Under the pieces are notes generated by a model. The model made no database searches and was not told where the DNA came from. It saw only the letters and a program-made list of their open reading frames with translations. A stretch of 60,948 nt of DNA, taken from an uncultured Anaeromyxobacter sp. (lineage in GTDB: Bacteria > Myxococcota > Myxococcia > Myxococcales > Anaeromyxobacteraceae). The position numbers and the translations under genes were made by a program. This document shows, piece after piece, positions 10,824 through 21,835 of the stretch. The DNA is taken from contig CAIVAR010000036.1 in assembly GCA_903904005.1 (NCBI GenBank), positions 1-60,948 of the forward strand, in the 5' to 3' direction. Position 1 is the first letter of the stretch. The number at the start of each line of letters is the position of its first letter.

Positions 10824-12709
10824 GCCGGGTCGGAGGAGAGCCAGCGCTCGAACGGCGCGAAGCTCGCGTCGCGCCCCAGGAAGTCGTGGACCAGCTCCCG
10901 GGCCGGCTTCGACCCGCCCGGCTCGAGCACCGCCCGGCGGTAGCGGCGGGCCGGTTCCGGCGAGAGGATCCCCTGCGCCTGGAAGGCGGAGAAGAGGTCC
11001 TTCGCGATGACGAGCGACCACATGTACGTGTAGTAGAGGGCCGAGTAGCCGTCGAGGTGGCCGAAGGAGGCGTGGAAGAAGGTCCCGGGCACGTGGCGGA
11101 ACGGCGTGTAGCGCTCCATGAGCCCGGCCACGAGCGCGGTGGTGTCGAGCCCCTCGGGATCGCGCCGGTGCAGCTCCAGGCTGACGGCGGCGTAGAACAT
11201 CTGCTGCCGGACGGTGAGCCCCTTGCCGAACTCCTCCGACGCGTCGAGGCGCCGGACCAGGTCGGCCGGGATGGGCTCGCCGGTCTCCACGTGGCGGGCG
11301 AAGCGGCGCAGCACCTCCGGGTCGCGCACCCACTCCTCGAGCAGCTGCGACGGCGCCTCCACGAAGTCCCACTCGGTGGCCACGCCGGAGTGGGCGCTCC
11401 AGCGGGTGTGCCCGCCGAGCACGTGGTGGAGCAGGTGGCCGAACTCGTGGAGCAGCGTGCGCACCTCGGAGAGGTCGAGCAGCGCCGGCGCCTCGCCGGG
11501 GCGCGGGAAGTTGCAGACCAGCACCCCCTCCGGCAGCCGCCTTCCGGCCTGGCCGTTCACCCGGGTGAACTGGGCGAAGTGCTTGTACTTGCCGTCGCGC
11601 GGGTGCATGTCGAGCCAGATGCGGCCGAGCGGCCGCTCCCCCTCGAGCACGTCGAAGACCTCCACCTCCGGGTGCCAGGCATCCGGGGCCTCGACGCGCC
11701 GGTAGGCGATGCCGAAGAGGTTCGCGGTGAGGTCGAGGATGCCGTCGCGGACCGCGCCGTACTCGAGGTAGGGGCGGGCGGCCCGGGCGTCGGCGCCGAA
11801 GCGCTCGGCCTTGATCCGCTCCGCGTAGAAGGCCGAGTCCCAGGGGTCGACGGCCTCGGCCCCGGGCAGGTCGAGCCGCTTGCGGGCGAGCAGGTCGGCG
11901 TGGTCCCGCTCCATCCGCGGACCGGCCGCCGCGGCGATCCGCTCCACGAAGGCCGCCGCCTGCGTCTCGCCGCCGATCATCTTGTCCTCGGTGGCGTAGG
12001 CGGCCCAGGTGGGATGGCCGAGCAGGCGGGCCAGCTCGGCGCGCCGGGAGAGCATGCGGGAGAGCACCTCGAGGTTGGCCGGGTGGGCCCGCTGCCGCTG
12101 CAGCCGCCAGAGCCGCTCCCGCAAGCCGGCGCTCTCCGCCCAGGTCACCACCGGCACGTAGTCGGTGGGGTCGGTGGTGACGGTGACCTTGCCGTCGTCG
12201 CCGGCAGGGCGGGCGCGCAGCCAGTCGGCGGGCAGGCCGGCGAGCTCGGCCGGATCGACCCGCAGCGACTTCACGTCGTCGCGCACGTTGCGGCCGAACT
12301 CCTGCCCGATCCGGACCAGCTCGTCGCGCAGCGCGCGGATCCGGGCCCGGGTGGCGTCGTCGCGATCGACGCCGGCCCGCCGGAAGTCGCGCAGGCTCTT
12401 CTCGACCATCCAGCGGGTGACGCCGTCGGCGCCCGCGAGGTCGACGCGGGCCAGCGCCTCGTACAGCCCGCGGTCGACGGAGAGGCCGGTCTGGAAGGCG
12501 TCGAGCTCCTGCTCGTCCTGCTCGGCCGCGTCCCGCACCGCCGGATCGGGGTGGACGTTGCGCAGCAGGCTGGCCTGCGCAGCCGCGTTGCCCAGCTCGG
12601 CGAAGGCGTCGTCGAGGAGGCCGAGCGCCTCGTCGCGGGGCCGGGCCGCCTCGGTGCGAAAGCGCTCGATCTTCTCCCGCGCGACCGGGATGGCGTCGCG
12701 AGCGGACAC
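10820..12709 (-). CDS. M3 family oligopeptidase (thimet/oligopeptidase F-like)
   Basis: A 629-residue zinc metallopeptidase that trims short peptides. The active site is LLHEFGHLLHH near residue 420 with the downstream Glu in GVATEWDFVEAPSQLLEEW. It has no signal peptide, so it is probably cytoplasmic. The start is a GTG that shares its first base with the last base of the gpsA stop codon (TAGTG), so the two genes are coupled. The length fits the M3A group (about 650-700), slightly short. Confidence 0.9.
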   Translation of the reverse strand: MSARDAIPVAREKIERFRTEAARPRDEALGLLDDAFAELGNAAAQASLLRNVHPDPAVRDAAEQDEQELDAFQTGLSVDRGLYEALARVDLAGADGVTRWMVEKSLRDFRRAGVDRDDATRARIRALRDELVRIGQEFGRNVRDDVKSLRVDPAELAGLPADWLRARPAGDDGKVTVTTDPTDYVPVVTWAESAGLRERLWRLQRQRAHPANLEVLSRMLSRRAELARLLGHPTWAAYATEDKMIGGETQAAAFVERIAAAAGPRMERDHADLLARKRLDLPGAEAVDPWDSAFYAERIKAERFGADARAARPYLEYGAVRDGILDLTANLFGIAYRRVEAPDAWHPEVEVFDVLEGERPLGRIWLDMHPRDGKYKHFAQFTRVNGQAGRRLPEGVLVCNFPRPGEAPALLDLSEVRTLLHEFGHLLHHVLGGHTRWSAHSGVATEWDFVEAPSQLLEEWVRDPEVLRRFARHVETGEPIPADLVRRLDASEEFGKGLTVRQQMFYAAVSLELHRRDPEGLDTTALVAGLMERYTPFRHVPGTFFHASFGHLDGYSALYYTYMWSLVIAKDLFSAFQAQGILSPEPARRYRRAVLEPGGSKPARELVHDFLGRDASFAPFERWLSSDPA

Positions 12710-13707
12710 TAGATCTCCGCCTTGGTCTCCCGGGTCATGAGATCCACCACCGCCTGCTTGGGCGTCAGGTCCTGGTGGAGCACCCGGTAGACCACCTCGG
12801 TGATGGGCATCTCGACGTGGAGCCGGTGGGCCAGCTCCCGCACCGTGCGCGCGGCGACCACGCCCTCCGCCACCTGACCCAGCTCGGCCTGGATGTCGGC
12901 CAGCGTGCGCCCCTTGCCGAGCGCGAAGCCGACCCGCCGGTTGCGGGACAGGTCGGACGAGCAGGTGAGCACGAGGTCCCCGACGCCGGACAGGCCGGCC
13001 AGCGTCAGCGGGTTCGCCCCCTTGCGCACCGCGAGGCGCGTCACCTCGGCGAGCCCCCGGGTGATGAGGGCGGCCCGGGCGTTGGCCCCGAACCCCAGCC
13101 CGTCGGACATGCCGGCCGCGATGGCGATGACGTTCTTCACCACCCCGCCGAGCTCGTTTCCGGGGACGTCGTTCGAGGTGTACGGGCGGAACCAGCGGGT
13201 GTGAAAGGCGTCCTGCACCGACTTGGTCACCCGGTCCCAGCGCCCGGCCACGGTGATGGCGGTGGGCATCTGCTGCACCACCTCGCGGGCGAAGGAGGGG
13301 CCGCCGACGTAGGCCAGGTACGGGTGCATGGCCACCGGCAGCACGTCCTCGAGCACCTCGGCCATGGACATGAGGCTGCCTTCCTCGATGCCCTTGGCCG
13401 CCGAGACCACCGCCGTCCCGGCGTGGAGGTGGCGCTTGGCCTCGATGGCGACCTGGCGCATCCCCGAGCTGGGGACGGCGAAGACCACCAGCTCCGCCCC
13501 CTCGAGCGCGCGCTGCAGGCTGGGCGTGGCCCCGAGCGTCGGCGGCAGCTTGATGCCGGGGAGGTAGTGGGGGTTCTCGTGATCCTTCACCACGGCGTCG
13601 AGCACCGGGGCGTCTCGACCCCAGAGCGTCACCGGGTAGCCCTTGCTGGCCAGCACCGAGGCCAGCGCCGTACCCCAGGATCCCGCTCCGAGCACCGTCG
13701 AACGCAT
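12709..13707 (-). CDS. gpsA: Glycerol-3-phosphate dehydrogenase [NAD(P)+]
   Basis: Reduces dihydroxyacetone phosphate to sn-glycerol 3-phosphate for phospholipid synthesis. It has 332 residues, a normal length. The Rossmann motif [12 protein letters not shown] is at the N-terminus. [23 protein letters not shown], and the catalytic-lysine region [15 protein letters not shown] are all present, as is [12 protein letters not shown]. It heads the minus-strand run that continues through the M3 peptidase, two permeases, the TPR protein, rnz and the methyltransferase. It starts 28 bases after the stop of the upstream FAD oxidoreductase gene, so it may also be read through from the polyketide cluster. 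Confidence 0.95.
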
Positions 13708-13735: not shown

Positions 13736-14863
13736 TTAACCACGGACCGGCGCGCTTGCGCTCGATTCTCGCGGCGATCCGCCCACGGCGGTGGCGAGGA
13801 GCGCGTCGAAGAGGCGCGGCGCGCGCCCCAGCCAGCGCACCGCCGCGCGTCGAAGCCCAGGCCGGCGGGCCATCCCGAGCACCAGCCGGGTCACGGCGGC
13901 GTGGCGCCGGTGGCGGGCCCGGATCGCCTGCTCCCAGGGGAGGAGCGATTCCCGCGTCGCGCCCCGGACGATTGCATCGGGGAGCAGGTCGCCGAGCAAG
14001 AGCGCCTCCTCGAGGGCGAGCGAGACCCCTTCCCCGGTGATGGCGTCGACGTAGCCGCCGGCGTCCCCGACGAGGACCAGCCGGTCCTGCACGCGGGTCG
14101 ACGCATCCCGGCCGAGCGGTCCGGCCCCGGCGAGCGCCGAGTCGAAGGGGGCCCCGGCCACCCGCGCGGCCAGGGCCGGGAACCGGGCGAGGAGCCTTTC
14201 GAAGTCGGGCGCAGGCCCCTCCTCGAAGAGGAAGGCCACCCCGACGCGGCGCGGACCGACCGGCGTCACGTAGGCCTCGGCCCCCGGCGAGAAGTGGACC
14301 TCGACCGCGTCCGACCAGGGAGGGAGGGCGAAGTGGCGGCGCAGACCGAAGCGGGGCAGCGCGCGCGCCGGCCCGGCGAGCCCCTCCCGTTCCCGGACGG
14401 CCGAGGCGAGCCCGTCGGCGCCGACGAGGACCCGGGCCCGGATCTCCTCGCCGCCGGCGAGCCCCACGGCAACGCCGGCAGCGTCGCGCCAGTGGGACGT
14501 CACCGCCGCCCGCTCCCTGACCTCGGCGCCGGCCTCGCGCGCCCGGGCGACGAGCGCGGCGGAGAGCGTCAGTCGGCGGATCCCCATGCCGCCCGGAGAG
14601 GGCAGGCGCGCCTCGGCGGCGCTCCCGTCCTCCTGGATCCAGCGGATGGCCCGCAACCGCGACCACCCGTCGGCGTCGAGGTGGCGCACCGCGCCGAGGG
14701 CCTCGAGCGCGGCCACGCCCCCGGGGAGCAACCCCTCCCCGCAGGCCTTGTCGGCCGGCAGCTCCCTCCGCTCCAGGACCAGCACGTCGAGCCCACGCGC
14801 GGCCAGCGCCGTCGCCGCCGCCAGCCCCGCCGGCCCACCCCCGATGACGATCACGTCGCGCAC
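13736..14863 (-). CDS. FAD-dependent oxidoreductase (geranylgeranyl reductase / UbiH-like)
   Basis: A 375-residue flavoprotein. The dinucleotide motif VIVIGGGPAGLAAATALAARG starts at residue 4, DKACGEGLLPGG follows (typical of the geranylgeranyl-reductase group), and LVLVGDAGGYVDAITGEGVSLAL is the second FAD motif. The GTG start has GGAGG directly upstream and lies one base after the stop of the acyl-AMP ligase gene. As last gene of the type III PKS cluster it may hydroxylate or reduce the polyketide ring, as the flavoprotein SrsC does in Streptomyces griseus phenolic lipid synthesis. That role is inference. Confidence 0.85.
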   Translation of the reverse strand: MRDVIVIGGGPAGLAAATALAARGLDVLVLERRELPADKACGEGLLPGGVAALEALGAVRHLDADGWSRLRAIRWIQEDGSAAEARLPSPGGMGIRRLTLSAALVARAREAGAEVRERAAVTSHWRDAAGVAVGLAGGEEIRARVLVGADGLASAVREREGLAGPARALPRFGLRRHFALPPWSDAVEVHFSPGAEAYVTPVGPRRVGVAFLFEEGPAPDFERLLARFPALAARVAGAPFDSALAGAGPLGRDASTRVQDRLVLVGDAGGYVDAITGEGVSLALEEALLLGDLLPDAIVRGATRESLLPWEQAIRARHRRHAAVTRLVLGMARRPGLRRAAVRWLGRAPRLFDALLATAVGGSPRESSASAPVRG

Positions 14864-14864
14864 G

Positions 14865-16535
14865 TCACCTCCCGGCCTGGAACCGGCGCAGCGCCTCGCC
14901 CCGGCGCATCTTGCCGCTCGAGGTGCGCGGCAGCGTGCCGGGCTCGAGGATCCGCACGGTGTGGGGGCGGACGCCGGTCCGCGCCGAGACGGCCTCCCGC
15001 ACCGCCTCCTCGAGGAGGGCGGGGTCGACCCGCGAGGTGCGCAGCCGCTCGGCCAGGACGAGGAGCTCCTCCCCGTCGCCGCCCGGGGGCACGAAGCCGA
15101 GCGCCGCCACGCAGCCGGGGCGCAAGCCCTCGATGGCGCCCAGGCAGGTCTCGAACTCGTCGGGGGCGTGGTTGGCGCCGCGCACGATGACGACGTCCTT
15201 GGCACGGCCGTGGACGAAGAGCTCGCCGCCGGCGTGGAAGCCCAGGTCGCCGGTGTCGAGCCAGCCGTCGCGGAGCGCGCGCCCGGTGGCGACGGGATCT
15301 CCCAGGTAGCCCTGCATGAGGGACGGGCCGCGGACGTGGATCCGGCCGAGACACCGCTCCCGGAGCGCCTCCCCGGCCTCGCCCCTCACCTCCACCTCGA
15401 CCCCGGGGACGGGCGCGCCCACCGAGACCACCTCCCGGTCGCCGGCCTCGACCCGGCCGGAGAGGAGCGCCGCAGGGTCGACCCGCTCGACGAGCGGGGT
15501 CCGCCCGCGGGGGGAGAAGGTCACCGCCAGCGACGCCTCGGAGAGGCCGTAGACCGGCATGAGCGCCCCGGGGTCGAGGCCGAAGGGGGCGAAGCGGTCG
15601 GCGAAGCGGCGCAGCGCACCGGCGGTGACCGGCTCGGCGCCGTCGAGGGCGATGCGCCAGGAGGCGAGGCTCGAGCCCTGCAGGTCCTCGTCGCGGACCC
15701 GGTCGGCGGCGTAGGCGTAGGCGAAGTGGGGCGCCGCCGAGATGGTGCCGCGGTGGCGGGCCAGCGCGCGGAGCCAGAGCGCCGGGCGGGCCAGGAAGTG
15801 CTCGGGCGGGAGGAGCACCAGCGGACCCGGGTAGCTCGCCGCGCCGAGCAGGCAGCCGATGAGCCCCATGTCGTGGTAGAGCGGCAGCCAGGAGACGACC
15901 ACGTCGTCGACCGTGGGTGAAATGACCGCCACCAGCGCATCGACCTGCGCCACGAGGCTTCGGTGGGAGAGCGCCACCGGCTTCGGGTCGACGGTCGACC
16001 CCGAGGAGAACTGCACCAGCGCGAGATCGGCGCCGCTGCGCGCCACCGAGCGCTCCGGCCCGTCGAGGAGCTCCGCCGCGTCCACCACGCCGAGGTCGAG
16101 CCCGGGGCCGGCTCCGGCCACCGCCCGGCCGATCACCCGCGCCACGTTGCCCGAGGTGACGAGCGCGCGCGCCCCCGACACCGCGAGCATGCGCGAGGTC
16201 GCGGCCACGTACTCGTCCATCCGGCCGAGCCGCACCGGCGGGTAGAGCGGCACCGGCACCGCGCCGGCGTGGAGGGCGCCGAAGAAGGCGTCGAGGAAGG
16301 CGGGCCCGGTGCGCAGCACGATGGCCACCCGGTCGCCCGGCCGGACGCCGCGGGCCGCCAGGGTGCCGGCGGAACGGCGGGCCCGGGCGTCGACCTCGGC
16401 CCAGGAGAGGCGCAACTCCTCCTCGCGGAGCCCGACGAAGGTGACGCCGGAGGGATGGCGCGCCGCAGCCGAGAGCATCGCCACCAGCGTGGCGTGGCGG
16501 GGTGCCGGCGCCGGCGGGCCCCGGAGCCGGGTCAC
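14865..16535 (-). CDS. Fatty acyl-AMP ligase / acyl-CoA synthetase-like enzyme
   Basis: A 556-residue ANL-superfamily enzyme that adenylates a fatty acid. The phosphate-binding loop is FSSGSTVDPKPV near residue 180. SWLPLYHDMGLIG, VYGLSEASLAVTF, DGWLDTGDLGF and the terminal lysine motif LPRTSSGKMRR are present. The VPVPLYPPVRLGRMDEY and YHDMGLIG signatures are those of fatty acyl-AMP ligases that load acyl carrier proteins. The GTG start overlaps the stop of the ACP gene by four bases, so the enzyme and its likely acceptor are co-translated. Whether it makes acyl-ACP or acyl-CoA is not decided by sequence alone. Confidence 0.86.
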   Translation of the reverse strand: MTRLRGPPAPAPRHATLVAMLSAAARHPSGVTFVGLREEELRLSWAEVDARARRSAGTLAARGVRPGDRVAIVLRTGPAFLDAFFGALHAGAVPVPLYPPVRLGRMDEYVAATSRMLAVSGARALVTSGNVARVIGRAVAGAGPGLDLGVVDAAELLDGPERSVARSGADLALVQFSSGSTVDPKPVALSHRSLVAQVDALVAVISPTVDDVVVSWLPLYHDMGLIGCLLGAASYPGPLVLLPPEHFLARPALWLRALARHRGTISAAPHFAYAYAADRVRDEDLQGSSLASWRIALDGAEPVTAGALRRFADRFAPFGLDPGALMPVYGLSEASLAVTFSPRGRTPLVERVDPAALLSGRVEAGDREVVSVGAPVPGVEVEVRGEAGEALRERCLGRIHVRGPSLMQGYLGDPVATGRALRDGWLDTGDLGFHAGGELFVHGRAKDVVIVRGANHAPDEFETCLGAIEGLRPGCVAALGFVPPGGDGEELLVLAERLRTSRVDPALLEEAVREAVSARTGVRPHTVRILEPGTLPRTSSGKMRRGEALRRFQAGR

Positions 16536-16786
16536 GGCGGGACCTCGGCGGGGGCGCGGGCGGCGACGATGCGGGCCAGGTCGGCGAGCGACCGGGCGGC
16601 GGCGGCGTCCTCCTCGGTGAGGACGATGCGGAACCGGTCCTCGACCGCCACCACGAGCGAGAGCAGCGCCAGCGAATCGAGCCGGGAGGCGAGCTCCTCG
16701 GAGTCGCCGAACTCGGTCCGGGCGTGCAGGTCCTCCCGGACGATGCGCCGGATCTCCGCGGCCACCTCGGCCTCGCGCCCACTCAC
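16532..16786 (-). CDS. Acyl carrier protein
   Basis: An 84-residue acidic helical protein. The phosphopantetheine attachment site is the Ser in SRLDSLALLSLVVAVEDRF, the usual DSL motif followed by helix II. It starts at GTG overlapping the stop of the ICMT-like gene (GTGA) and ends overlapping the GTG of the acyl-AMP ligase. Its place between these genes suggests it carries the fatty acyl starter for the type III polyketide synthase rather than serving general fatty acid synthesis. Confidence 0.88.
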   Translation of the reverse strand: MSGREAEVAAEIRRIVREDLHARTEFGDSEELASRLDSLALLSLVVAVEDRFRIVLTEEDAAAARSLADLARIVAARAPAEVPP

Positions 16787-17334
16787 GGGACGAACCTCCC
16801 CTTCTTCTCGAAGGCCCGGCTCCACTCCGGACCGAGCGCCCGCTCCTCCTCCCGGATGCGGAACCAGAGGATGATCGCGTTGCCCACCGTGAAGATGAGG
16901 GCGAGGCGCCACATCCCCCAGGCGAGCGGCAGGCAGGCCATCTCCACGATCACCGCCAGGTAGTTGGGGTGGCGCAGGAACCGGTACGGGCCGCCGGTGA
17001 CCGGGCGCTCCCGGGGAACCACGATGACCCGGGTGCTCCACCGGTCGCCCAGCGTCTTCACCGCCCACCAGCGGAGCCCCTGCGCCCCGATCGCGCCCAG
17101 CACGGCCAGCCAGGCCCAGGCGGGCGGCGGCTCCCGGTAGGCGATGGCGCCGAGCGCCAGCACCGGGAGGAAGACGGCGTGGAAGGCCACCATCACCTTG
17201 TAGAGACGCTGGCCGGTCTCCTTCCCGCCGCGGGCCAGCAGCCGGCGCGCGTTTCGCTTCGAGACCGAGAGCTCGGCGCCGCGCTCGCCGGCGACGAGAC
17301 CGAGGAGCGCCAGGTAGGCCCAGAGCGCCGTCAC
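16783..17334 (-). CDS. Isoprenylcysteine carboxyl methyltransferase-like membrane methyltransferase (SrsB-like)
   Basis: A 183-residue integral membrane protein with about four to five helices. The C-terminal signature GPYRFLRHPNYLAVIVEM and RIREEERALG is that of the ICMT/phospholipid methyltransferase fold. It lies 13 bases downstream of the type III PKS. In Streptomyces griseus the ICMT-like SrsB O-methylates alkylresorcinols made by the type III PKS SrsA. The same gene pairing here makes O-methylation of a phenolic lipid the most economical proposal (inference). Confidence 0.87.
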   Translation of the reverse strand: MTALWAYLALLGLVAGERGAELSVSKRNARRLLARGGKETGQRLYKVMVAFHAVFLPVLALGAIAYREPPPAWAWLAVLGAIGAQGLRWWAVKTLGDRWSTRVIVVPRERPVTGGPYRFLRHPNYLAVIVEMACLPLAWGMWRLALIFTVGNAIILWFRIREEERALGPEWSRAFEKKGRFVP

Positions 17335-17347
17335 GTGGGGATCCCTC

Positions 17348-18442
17348 TCACCACCGGAGGAGTACCATCTCGGCGCAGAAGCCGGGCCCCATGGCGACGA
17401 GCAGGCCGAGATCGCCGGGGCTGGGCTCCCCCGAGGCGACCAGGTCGCCGAGCACGAAGAGCACCGACGCCGAGGAGAGGTTCCCCACCTCCTCGAGCGA
17501 CCGCCAGGACCGGTCGAGCGCGCCGTCGGGCAGCGCCAGCGCCGACTGGAAGGCCTCGAGGACCTTCGGCCCGCCGGTGTGGGCGATCCAGTGCCGGACG
17601 TCGGAGCGCCGCAGCCCGTGCGCGGCCAGGAACCCGTCCACGTCCTTGCCGATGTTCTCGCGCGTGATGCGGGGGACCTCGGCCGAGAGCACCACCTGGA
17701 AGCCGGTGTCCCGGAAGTCCCAGCCCATGACCCACTCGGTGTCCGGGTAGAAGGCGGACCGGGTGGCGACGATCCGCGGGCCGGGCGGCCCCTTCACCGC
17801 TCGTGAACCACCGGCCAGGACCACCGCCGCCGCCCCGTCGCCGAAGATCCCCGAGGCCACCGCGTTGGCGACCGAGAGGTCCTCCCGCTGCAGGGTGAGC
17901 GAGCAGAGCTCCACCGAGAGCAGCACCCCCACGTCGCCCGGGAACCCGGTCAGCAGATCCGAGAGGCGGGCCAGCCCGGCGGCCCCGGCCACGCAGCCCA
18001 GACCGAAGACGGGCATCCGTTTCACGTCGCGCCGCAGCCCGAGCCGGTTCACCAGCTTCGCGTCGATGGACGGGGTGGCGAGGCCGGTGACGGTGACGAA
18101 GACGAGCTGGTCCACGTCGGCCGGCGCGAGCCCCGCCGCGTCGAGGGCCCGGGTGATCGCCTCGGCCCCCAGCTCCTCGGCCACCCGGATCCAGGCGTCG
18201 TTCGACCTCTTGAAGGTCCCGAGCTCCGGGTACTCGGCGAGCGGGAGCGCCAGGTGGCGCCCCTTCACCCGCACGGCCCGGTGCAGTTCCTCGAGCCGGT
18301 CGGCGTTGAAGTGCTGCCGGGCCCAGTGGGCCCGGAGGGCGGCGGTCAGGGTCTCCTGATCGGCGTAGTTCCCGGGGAGGGCGCGCCCGATGGAGAGCAC
18401 GGCCGGGGAGGTCGTCGCGGGTCGGGGAGAGGGATCGGCCAC
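17348..18442 (-). CDS. Type III polyketide synthase (chalcone/stilbene/alkylresorcinol synthase family)
   Basis: A 364-residue ketosynthase-fold homodimer candidate. The Cys-His-Asn triad is visible: Cys in [18 protein letters not shown] (near residue 149), His in [15 protein letters not shown] and Asn in [16 protein letters not shown]. The C-terminal [14 protein letters not shown] is the usual GPG loop. A GTG start at 18442 fits family length. An ATG at 18502 would add 20 residues behind a run of G, and is a real alternative. It is first in a five-gene cluster with methyltransferase, ACP, acyl-AMP ligase and FAD oxidoreductase. Product type (resorcinol or pyrone) cannot be read from sequence. 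Confidence 0.92.
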
Positions 18443-18521
18443 CTTCGGAGCCCTAATCGGGGCCGGGGCCACGCGCCCCAGCTGCGACGTCCGACACCCC
18501 ATTGGCCCCCCATTCCGGCAC

Positions 18522-18549
18522 TTGCCATGCATGCCCAGGGACTTACGAT
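18522..18549 (+). promoter_or_regulatory. Putative promoter of clpB
   Basis: TTGCCA, a 16-base spacer, then TACGAT. The -10 hexamer ends eight bases before the clpB ATG at 18558, so the expected transcription start is at or next to the start codon. It is a housekeeping-type match; no convincing heat-shock -35/-10 pair was seen. Confidence 0.45.
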
Positions 18550-18557
18550 TCAGGGAT

Positions 18558-21194
<2,637 letters not shown>

Positions 21195-21274: not shown

Positions 21275-21433
21275 GTTTCTCCACGCCGGAAGCGGGGATC
21301 AGGAAAAACAGTTCTTCTCATGGTTCCGTGATCACTGGAGATTTCGGGAGGGCGAATCCGGCACGCCCCCTGCTCTGGGAAGAATCGTCGGCCGATGGCC
21401 GCGCCACAACCCTTCCCACGAGGTTCACACAAC

Positions 21434-21835
21434 ATGAAGAAGATCCTGAGCTCGTTCGTCGCCGTCGCCTTCCTCTCCGCCCCCGCCTTCGCCGACGACA
21501 AGGCCGCTGCCAAGCCGGCCGCTCCGGTTGCCGCTCCTGCCGCCCCCGCCGCGAAGCCGGCTGCCCCGGCTCCTGCTCCTGCCGCCGCCGCCGTCGCCCC
21601 CGCCGCCAAGCCGGCCGCTCCCGCCGCTGCCCCGGCCGCCGCCCCCACGAAGGCCGAGAAGAAGGCCAGCAAGAAGAAGGCCGCGAAGCCCGCCGCCGAT
21701 GCGAAGCCGGCCGCTCCTGCCGCCGCCCCCGCCGCTGCCCCGGCCGCCGCCAAGCCGGCCGCTCCTGCTGCTCCCGCCGCCGCCCCGGCCGCTGCCAAGC
21801 CGGCTGCTCCCGCTCCCGCCAAGGAGGCCAAGTAG
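21434..21835 (+). CDS. Secreted Lys/Ala/Pro-repeat low-complexity protein
   Basis: A 133-residue protein. A clear signal peptide MKKILSSFVAVAFLSAPAFA is followed by a mature part made almost only of Ala, Pro and Lys in repeats such as KPAAPAAAPAA, with one central lysine-rich stretch (KAEKKASKKKAAK). Composition resembles the PAKA-type linkers of TonB-like and histone-like proteins. It is highly basic and extended, so periplasmic binding to an anionic polymer is possible, but no domain is seen. A strong terminator follows. The reading frame is supported by the signal peptide and by flanking regulatory elements. Confidence 0.75.
   Translation: MKKILSSFVAVAFLSAPAFADDKAAAKPAAPVAAPAAPAAKPAAPAPAPAAAAVAPAAKPAAPAAAPAAAPTKAEKKASKKKAAKPAADAKPAAPAAAPAAAPAAAKPAAPAAPAAAPAAAKPAAPAPAKEAK

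Follow-up and report, generated by a model that had tools for sequence, protein, structure and literature searches.

An ftp-type operon coupling a fatty acyl-AMP ligase and an acyl carrier protein to a type III polyketide synthase in an uncultured Anaeromyxobacter

The window, meaning the whole 60,948-nucleotide stretch of DNA from an uncultured Anaeromyxobacter sp. that was analyzed, carries a compact group of five genes on its minus strand. These genes and their two neighbors, the latter named from their translations alone, are as follows.

17348 to 18442, minus strand: type III polyketide synthase (PKS; FtpA/SrsA/Pks11-like), 364 amino acids as drawn; PF00195/PF02797
16783 to 17334, minus strand: ICMT-family (SrsB-like) membrane methyltransferase, 183 amino acids; PF04140, 90 bits; placed as in most myxobacterial clusters and in Streptomyces
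16532 to 16786, minus strand: discrete acyl carrier protein (ACP), 84 amino acids; PF00550, 28.7 bits; DSL phosphopantetheine-attachment motif, LDSLALLSLVVAVE
14865 to 16535, minus strand: fatty acyl-AMP ligase (FAAL), 556 amino acids, with the FAAL-specific helix region and CoA-excluding residues
13736 to 14863, minus strand: FAD-dependent oxidoreductase (FAD_binding_3/geranylgeranyl-reductase superfamily), 375 amino acids, GTG start at 14863; PF01494, 82 bits; putative SrsC-like hydroxylase by position
about 18557 to 21194, plus strand: clpB-like gene, the divergent neighbor
12709 to 13707, minus strand: gpsA-like gene, the other neighbor

The five genes are co-directional and are transcribed in the order PKS, ICMT, ACP, FAAL, and FAD, with intergenic spacings of +13, −4 (overlap), −4 (overlap), and +1 bases, which suggest that they form one transcription unit. 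Each of the five proteins exceeds the Pfam gathering score for its assigned family. A preliminary description of this DNA had reported a five-gene cluster with tight gaps or overlaps, and its coordinates, spacings, and families agree with the open reading frames and the Pfam scan. The start codon of the PKS gene is uncertain because the frame is open to position 18775 and homologues align only from approximately residue 8 to 13. Only ~115 bases (18443–18557) separate the PKS gene from the divergent clpB-like gene, and the arrangement in L040 is similar; in other genera of the family, a clpB-like match lies ~0.7 to 2.8 kb from the PKS gene. A short open reading frame at 21395 to 21835 on the plus strand encodes a low-complexity protein rich in Ala, Pro, and Lys with a signal-like N terminus.

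The best match of the PKS in the PDB is Pks11 of Mycobacterium tuberculosis (E 1e-100), followed by cyanobacterial CylI. In an alignment with 14 relatives, the catalytic triad Cys150-His288-Asn321 is invariant, as is Trp241, which aligns with Trp230 of M. tuberculosis Pks11, an equivalence established by counting positions in the Pks11 alignment. A Trp residue that is found in ArsB, FtpA, SrsA, PKS10, and PKS11 has been tied to resorcinol formation (PMC5916927). As read through the Pks11 alignment, W241 is the Trp residue expected of a type III PKS that forms alkylresorcinols.

Several features of the ligase distinguish it from an ordinary acyl-CoA ligase, a candidate assignment that is disfavored by model scores, structural matches, and CoA-blocking residues alike. 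The NCBIfam model named “fatty acyl-AMP ligase” gives 414 bits, whereas PRK06187, a general model for long-chain acyl-CoA ligases, gives 180 bits. None of the ligase scores reaches its curated cut-off, and a model called long-chain-fatty-acid--CoA ligase ranks second with 399 bits. The match to the Escherichia coli FAAL structure (EcFAAL, 3PBK) has an E value of 8e-88; among structures of acyl-CoA synthases, the best match reaches 1e-31. The counterparts of EcFAAL P107, W224, P226, M231, and F279, which block CoA or line an alternative pocket (eLife 2021, PMC8460268), are identical in the window ligase and invariant among the 69 operon sequences aligned. The FAAL-specific helix (EcFAAL T252–R258) also aligns without gaps, PPEHFLARP being matched with RTQDFAMRP.

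The stretch that follows YGLSE, a candidate for the FAAL-specific insertion of the N-terminal domain, aligns with EcFAAL and is somewhat shorter in the window ligase. In several homologues (L072/L040, L061, L062/L094, L065, L081, L090, L113, L119, and L138) this loop, probably the insertion, is strongly shortened while the CoA-blocking residues are all kept. Such short-loop FAALs offer a natural experiment on the feature responsible for excluding CoA.

The attachment serine of the ACP (within DSL, DSM, or DSI) is present in 12 of the 12 homologues listed, and the genome carries two genes of the holo-ACP synthase family (PF01648). For the flavoprotein, the top-scoring model is the geranylgeranyl-reductase superfamily (GG-red-SF) at 138 bits, which is below the cut-off of 158.8. 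Its position in the operon and its homologue in the Streptomyces globisporus operon, to which it is 47% identical, point to a probable role as a hydroxylase.

Orthologous operons are widespread. The PKS is found at 58 to 88% identity in most of 40 related genomes, and the order PKS-(ICMT)-ACP-FAAL-FAD recurs in nearly all related genomes with enough flanking DNA. In a scan of named genomes, the full five-gene order was present in Anaeromyxobacter oryzae, Corallococcus, Myxococcus eversor, Pyxidicoccus caerfyrddinensis, and Archangium lansinium; it also occurs in several metagenome-assembled genomes (MAGs) labeled Acidobacteriota. Because the order is kept in dozens of genomes, the grouping of these genes is not due to chance. 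Among operon relatives in the same family and order, identities to the window proteins are 62 to 68% for PKS, 54 to 61% for ICMT, 45 to 60% for ACP, 59 to 68% for FAAL, and 55 to 58% for FAD, and the nearest relative (L072/L040) is 84 to 88% identical in PKS, ICMT, ACP, and FAAL. Operons of this type are common in Anaeromyxobacter itself (L080, L082, and L041–L060). One genome of the same genus that is 99% complete (G003) seems to lack the whole type III PKS cluster, with only KAS III-like matches being recovered.

The relationships among these synthases were evaluated with a maximum-likelihood, midpoint-rooted tree of 81 sequences, for which the 80 loci that most closely resemble the window were sampled. 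The window PKS groups with those of Anaeromyxobacteraceae, inside a set of 35 rows that has 100/100 support and that is composed of myxobacteria and four MAGs labeled Acidobacteriota; 32 of these rows have a FAAL gene. Within the fetched flanks, no FAAL match was found near the PKS gene in Streptomyces, in Acidobacteriaceae, or in a few Archangium MAG clusters. The Streptomyces clusters consist of PKS-ICMT-FAD alone, and the Acidobacteriaceae form is PKS-FAD.

Three MAGs labeled Myxococcales or Archangium (L095, L096, and L101) have PKS-ICMT-FAD and no FAAL or ACP match. In the tree, their synthases cluster together with support amid the FAAL-bearing synthases of myxobacteria, a position suggesting that the loading module may have been secondarily lost in this group. 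With midpoint rooting, the deepest split of the tree has FAAL-bearing rows on either side, and the rows from Streptomyces are nested within these. Within the limits set by sampling and rooting, this pattern is consistent with an origin of the FAAL-ACP module before that of the three-gene form in Streptomyces. For this sample of 80 loci chosen by similarity to the window, we rejected a single gain of the module, as the tree needs four to six state changes, changes that we read as losses.

The methyltransferase gene shows a separate pattern of absence. It is missing between the PKS and ACP genes in most genomes of the genus labeled g4, which belongs to the same family as the window (L041, L042, L043, L046, L056, L058, L060, and L067) and also in Anaeromyxobacter oryzisoli (L082), and it is kept in A. 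oryzae (L080). Relocation of the gene in Anaeromyxobacter lacking it at this position was rejected, since no ICMT homologue was found in G006, G015, G017, G019, G020, G021, or G023, of which G017 and G023 are fragmented assemblies; G011 gave only a weak 31% ICMT match. We tentatively entertain, as a possibility on the doubtful side, that the operon fed by FAAL-ACP came first, and that the CoA-primed SrsABC system of Streptomyces and the PKS-FAD form of Acidobacteriaceae arose from it when the loading module was lost. Independently, the methyltransferase would have been lost in part of Anaeromyxobacter, so that those strains would make a quinone lipid without the methyl group, which may suit anaerobic respiration.

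The window operon is very probably an orthologue of the Myxococcus xanthus ftp cluster that is fed by a FAAL-ACP pair and that makes a methoxyhydroquinone or alkylbenzoquinone membrane lipid. As judged from the gene families, the FAAL would adenylate a long-chain fatty acid and attach it to the phosphopantetheine group carried by the small ACP. The PKS would then take the acyl chain as a starter and extend it with malonyl-CoA, perhaps also with methylmalonyl-CoA, and ring closure would yield an alkylresorcylic acid or alkylresorcinol, possibly along with alkylpyrones. The ICMT-like enzyme would O-methylate a phenol, and the flavoprotein would hydroxylate the ring to give the methoxyhydroquinone or alkylbenzoquinone lipid of the membrane. 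We infer how the substrate moves through the pathway, whether methylation precedes oxidation, how long the chain is, and what the exact product is, which is likely to be a methoxylated alkylresorcinol or an alkylbenzoquinone, possibly with alkylpyrones. The same sequence of adenylation, ACP loading, condensation, O-methylation, and oxidation had been put forward in the preliminary description, and it fits the families to which the genes belong, the catalytic residues, and the conservation of the operon. Delivery by the ACP need not be obligatory, because FtpA is described as using malonyl- and methylmalonyl-CoA together with long-chain acyl-CoA starters (PMC5916927). By analogy with this description, acyl-CoA can likely prime the window PKS as well.

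The type of ring, resorcinol or pyrone, is the main uncertainty of this pathway, since alkylpyrones have also been attributed to type III PKS clusters of myxobacteria (Hug 2019, as cited in PMC12766979 and PMC9684338). An operon that makes mainly alkyl-α-pyrones of the alkylpyrone-407/393 type, wherein the methyltransferase and flavoprotein act on a pyrone or on minor resorcinols, would agree with later surveys that annotate such clusters by similarity to the characterized alkylpyrone cluster BGC0001831 (PMC12766979, PMC9684338). It would also agree with the nearest solved structure being Pks11, whose paper names methyl-branched alkylpyrones in its title. We nevertheless consider this alternative unlikely, since the Trp residue aligned with the resorcinol-associated Trp is invariant, the presence of SrsB- and SrsC-like enzymes in the operon suggests decoration of a phenol, and FtpA is reported, in the title of Hayashi et al. 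2011, as a maker of alkylresorcylic acid. It is highly improbable that the ligase and ACP serve another lipid pathway while the PKS takes its starters from a general pool of acyl-CoA or FAS acyl-ACP: the clusters without a FAAL match in the fetched flanks and the acyl-CoA starters described for FtpA (PMC5916927) would permit it, but PKS, ACP, and FAAL keep their adjacency and order in myxobacteria and in many Acidobacteriota, and no other close FAAL was found in the genome, where the next best ligase matches at E 6e-22.

The operon, for which resorcinol formation, methylation, and oxidation fed by the FAAL-ACP pair is our preferred reading, belongs to a known system. Involvement of a FAAL with the M. 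xanthus type III PKS FtpA was published by Hayashi et al. 2011, as represented by the papers that cite it (PMC10896814, PMC5916927, PMC8460268, PMC5006271), and FtpA products are stated to be oxidized to alkylquinones (PMC10896814). An M. xanthus FAAL loads its ACP, the pair not necessarily being that of the ftp cluster (eLife 2021, PMC8460268). The uncultured bacterium Mor1 has a cluster organized alike, with a synthase, a methyltransferase, an AMP-dependent synthetase, and a monooxygenase (PMC5006271).

The 2011 M. xanthus work, as described by its citing papers, and the conservation of the operon together rule out the combination of FAAL, ACP, and type III PKS as new. The preliminary description had remarked that type III synthases normally use free CoA thioesters, which overlooks the FtpA precedent as those papers relate it, and had called the discrete FAAL-ACP module unusual, when it is the common form in myxobacteria and in some Acidobacteriota. 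Its mechanism is broadly right, and the operon is a new example of a known system that adds a clean Anaeromyxobacteraceae case to a published pathway and illustrates the wide retention of the form fed by FAAL-ACP among myxobacteria and Acidobacteriota. The absence of the ICMT gene in several Anaeromyxobacter, the short FAAL loops, and the possible antiquity of the FAAL-ACP module are modest extras, new but minor. A 2025 survey reported that a conserved myxobacterial alkylpyrone cluster is absent from Anaeromyxobacter (PMC12766979). The ftp-type operon, being common in that genus, may help to reassess this call if the surveyed cluster and the operon correspond.

Four known systems invite comparison. 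In the cylindrocyclophane pathway, CylA is a FAAL, CylB is an ACP, and CylI is a type III PKS, and a type I PKS extends the chain ahead of the type III enzyme. The window operon shares the use of a FAAL and an ACP to prime a route ending in a resorcinol-making type III PKS, whereas no type I PKS is seen in it. The cyanobacterial hidABC operon and a related planctomycete operon likewise combine a methyltransferase, an FAD oxidoreductase, and an alkylresorcinol-forming type III PKS, but there the PKS gene is last rather than first, and these are described as three-gene operons without FAAL-ACP (PMC10896814).

The preliminary description had recognized the logic of SrsA-SrsB-SrsC, and this resemblance is borne out. 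The window operon shares with srsABC of Streptomyces griseus the gene order PKS, ICMT-like methyltransferase, flavoprotein, as seen in other Streptomyces, and the PKS, ICMT, and FAD proteins of S. globisporus and Streptomyces anulatus are 62 to 63%, 51 to 53%, and 47% identical to the window proteins over the aligned parts. The window operon differs from the three-gene srsABC in having FAAL and ACP genes. Because SrsABC is without FAAL and ACP, Ftp is the better comparator. Like the window operon, the M. xanthus ftp cluster unites a FAAL, a type III PKS, and accessory genes, and all five genes occur in the same order in Myxococcus, Pyxidicoccus, and Corallococcus relatives, with protein identities of ~47 to 62% as measured on M. 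eversor relatives rather than on M. xanthus itself.
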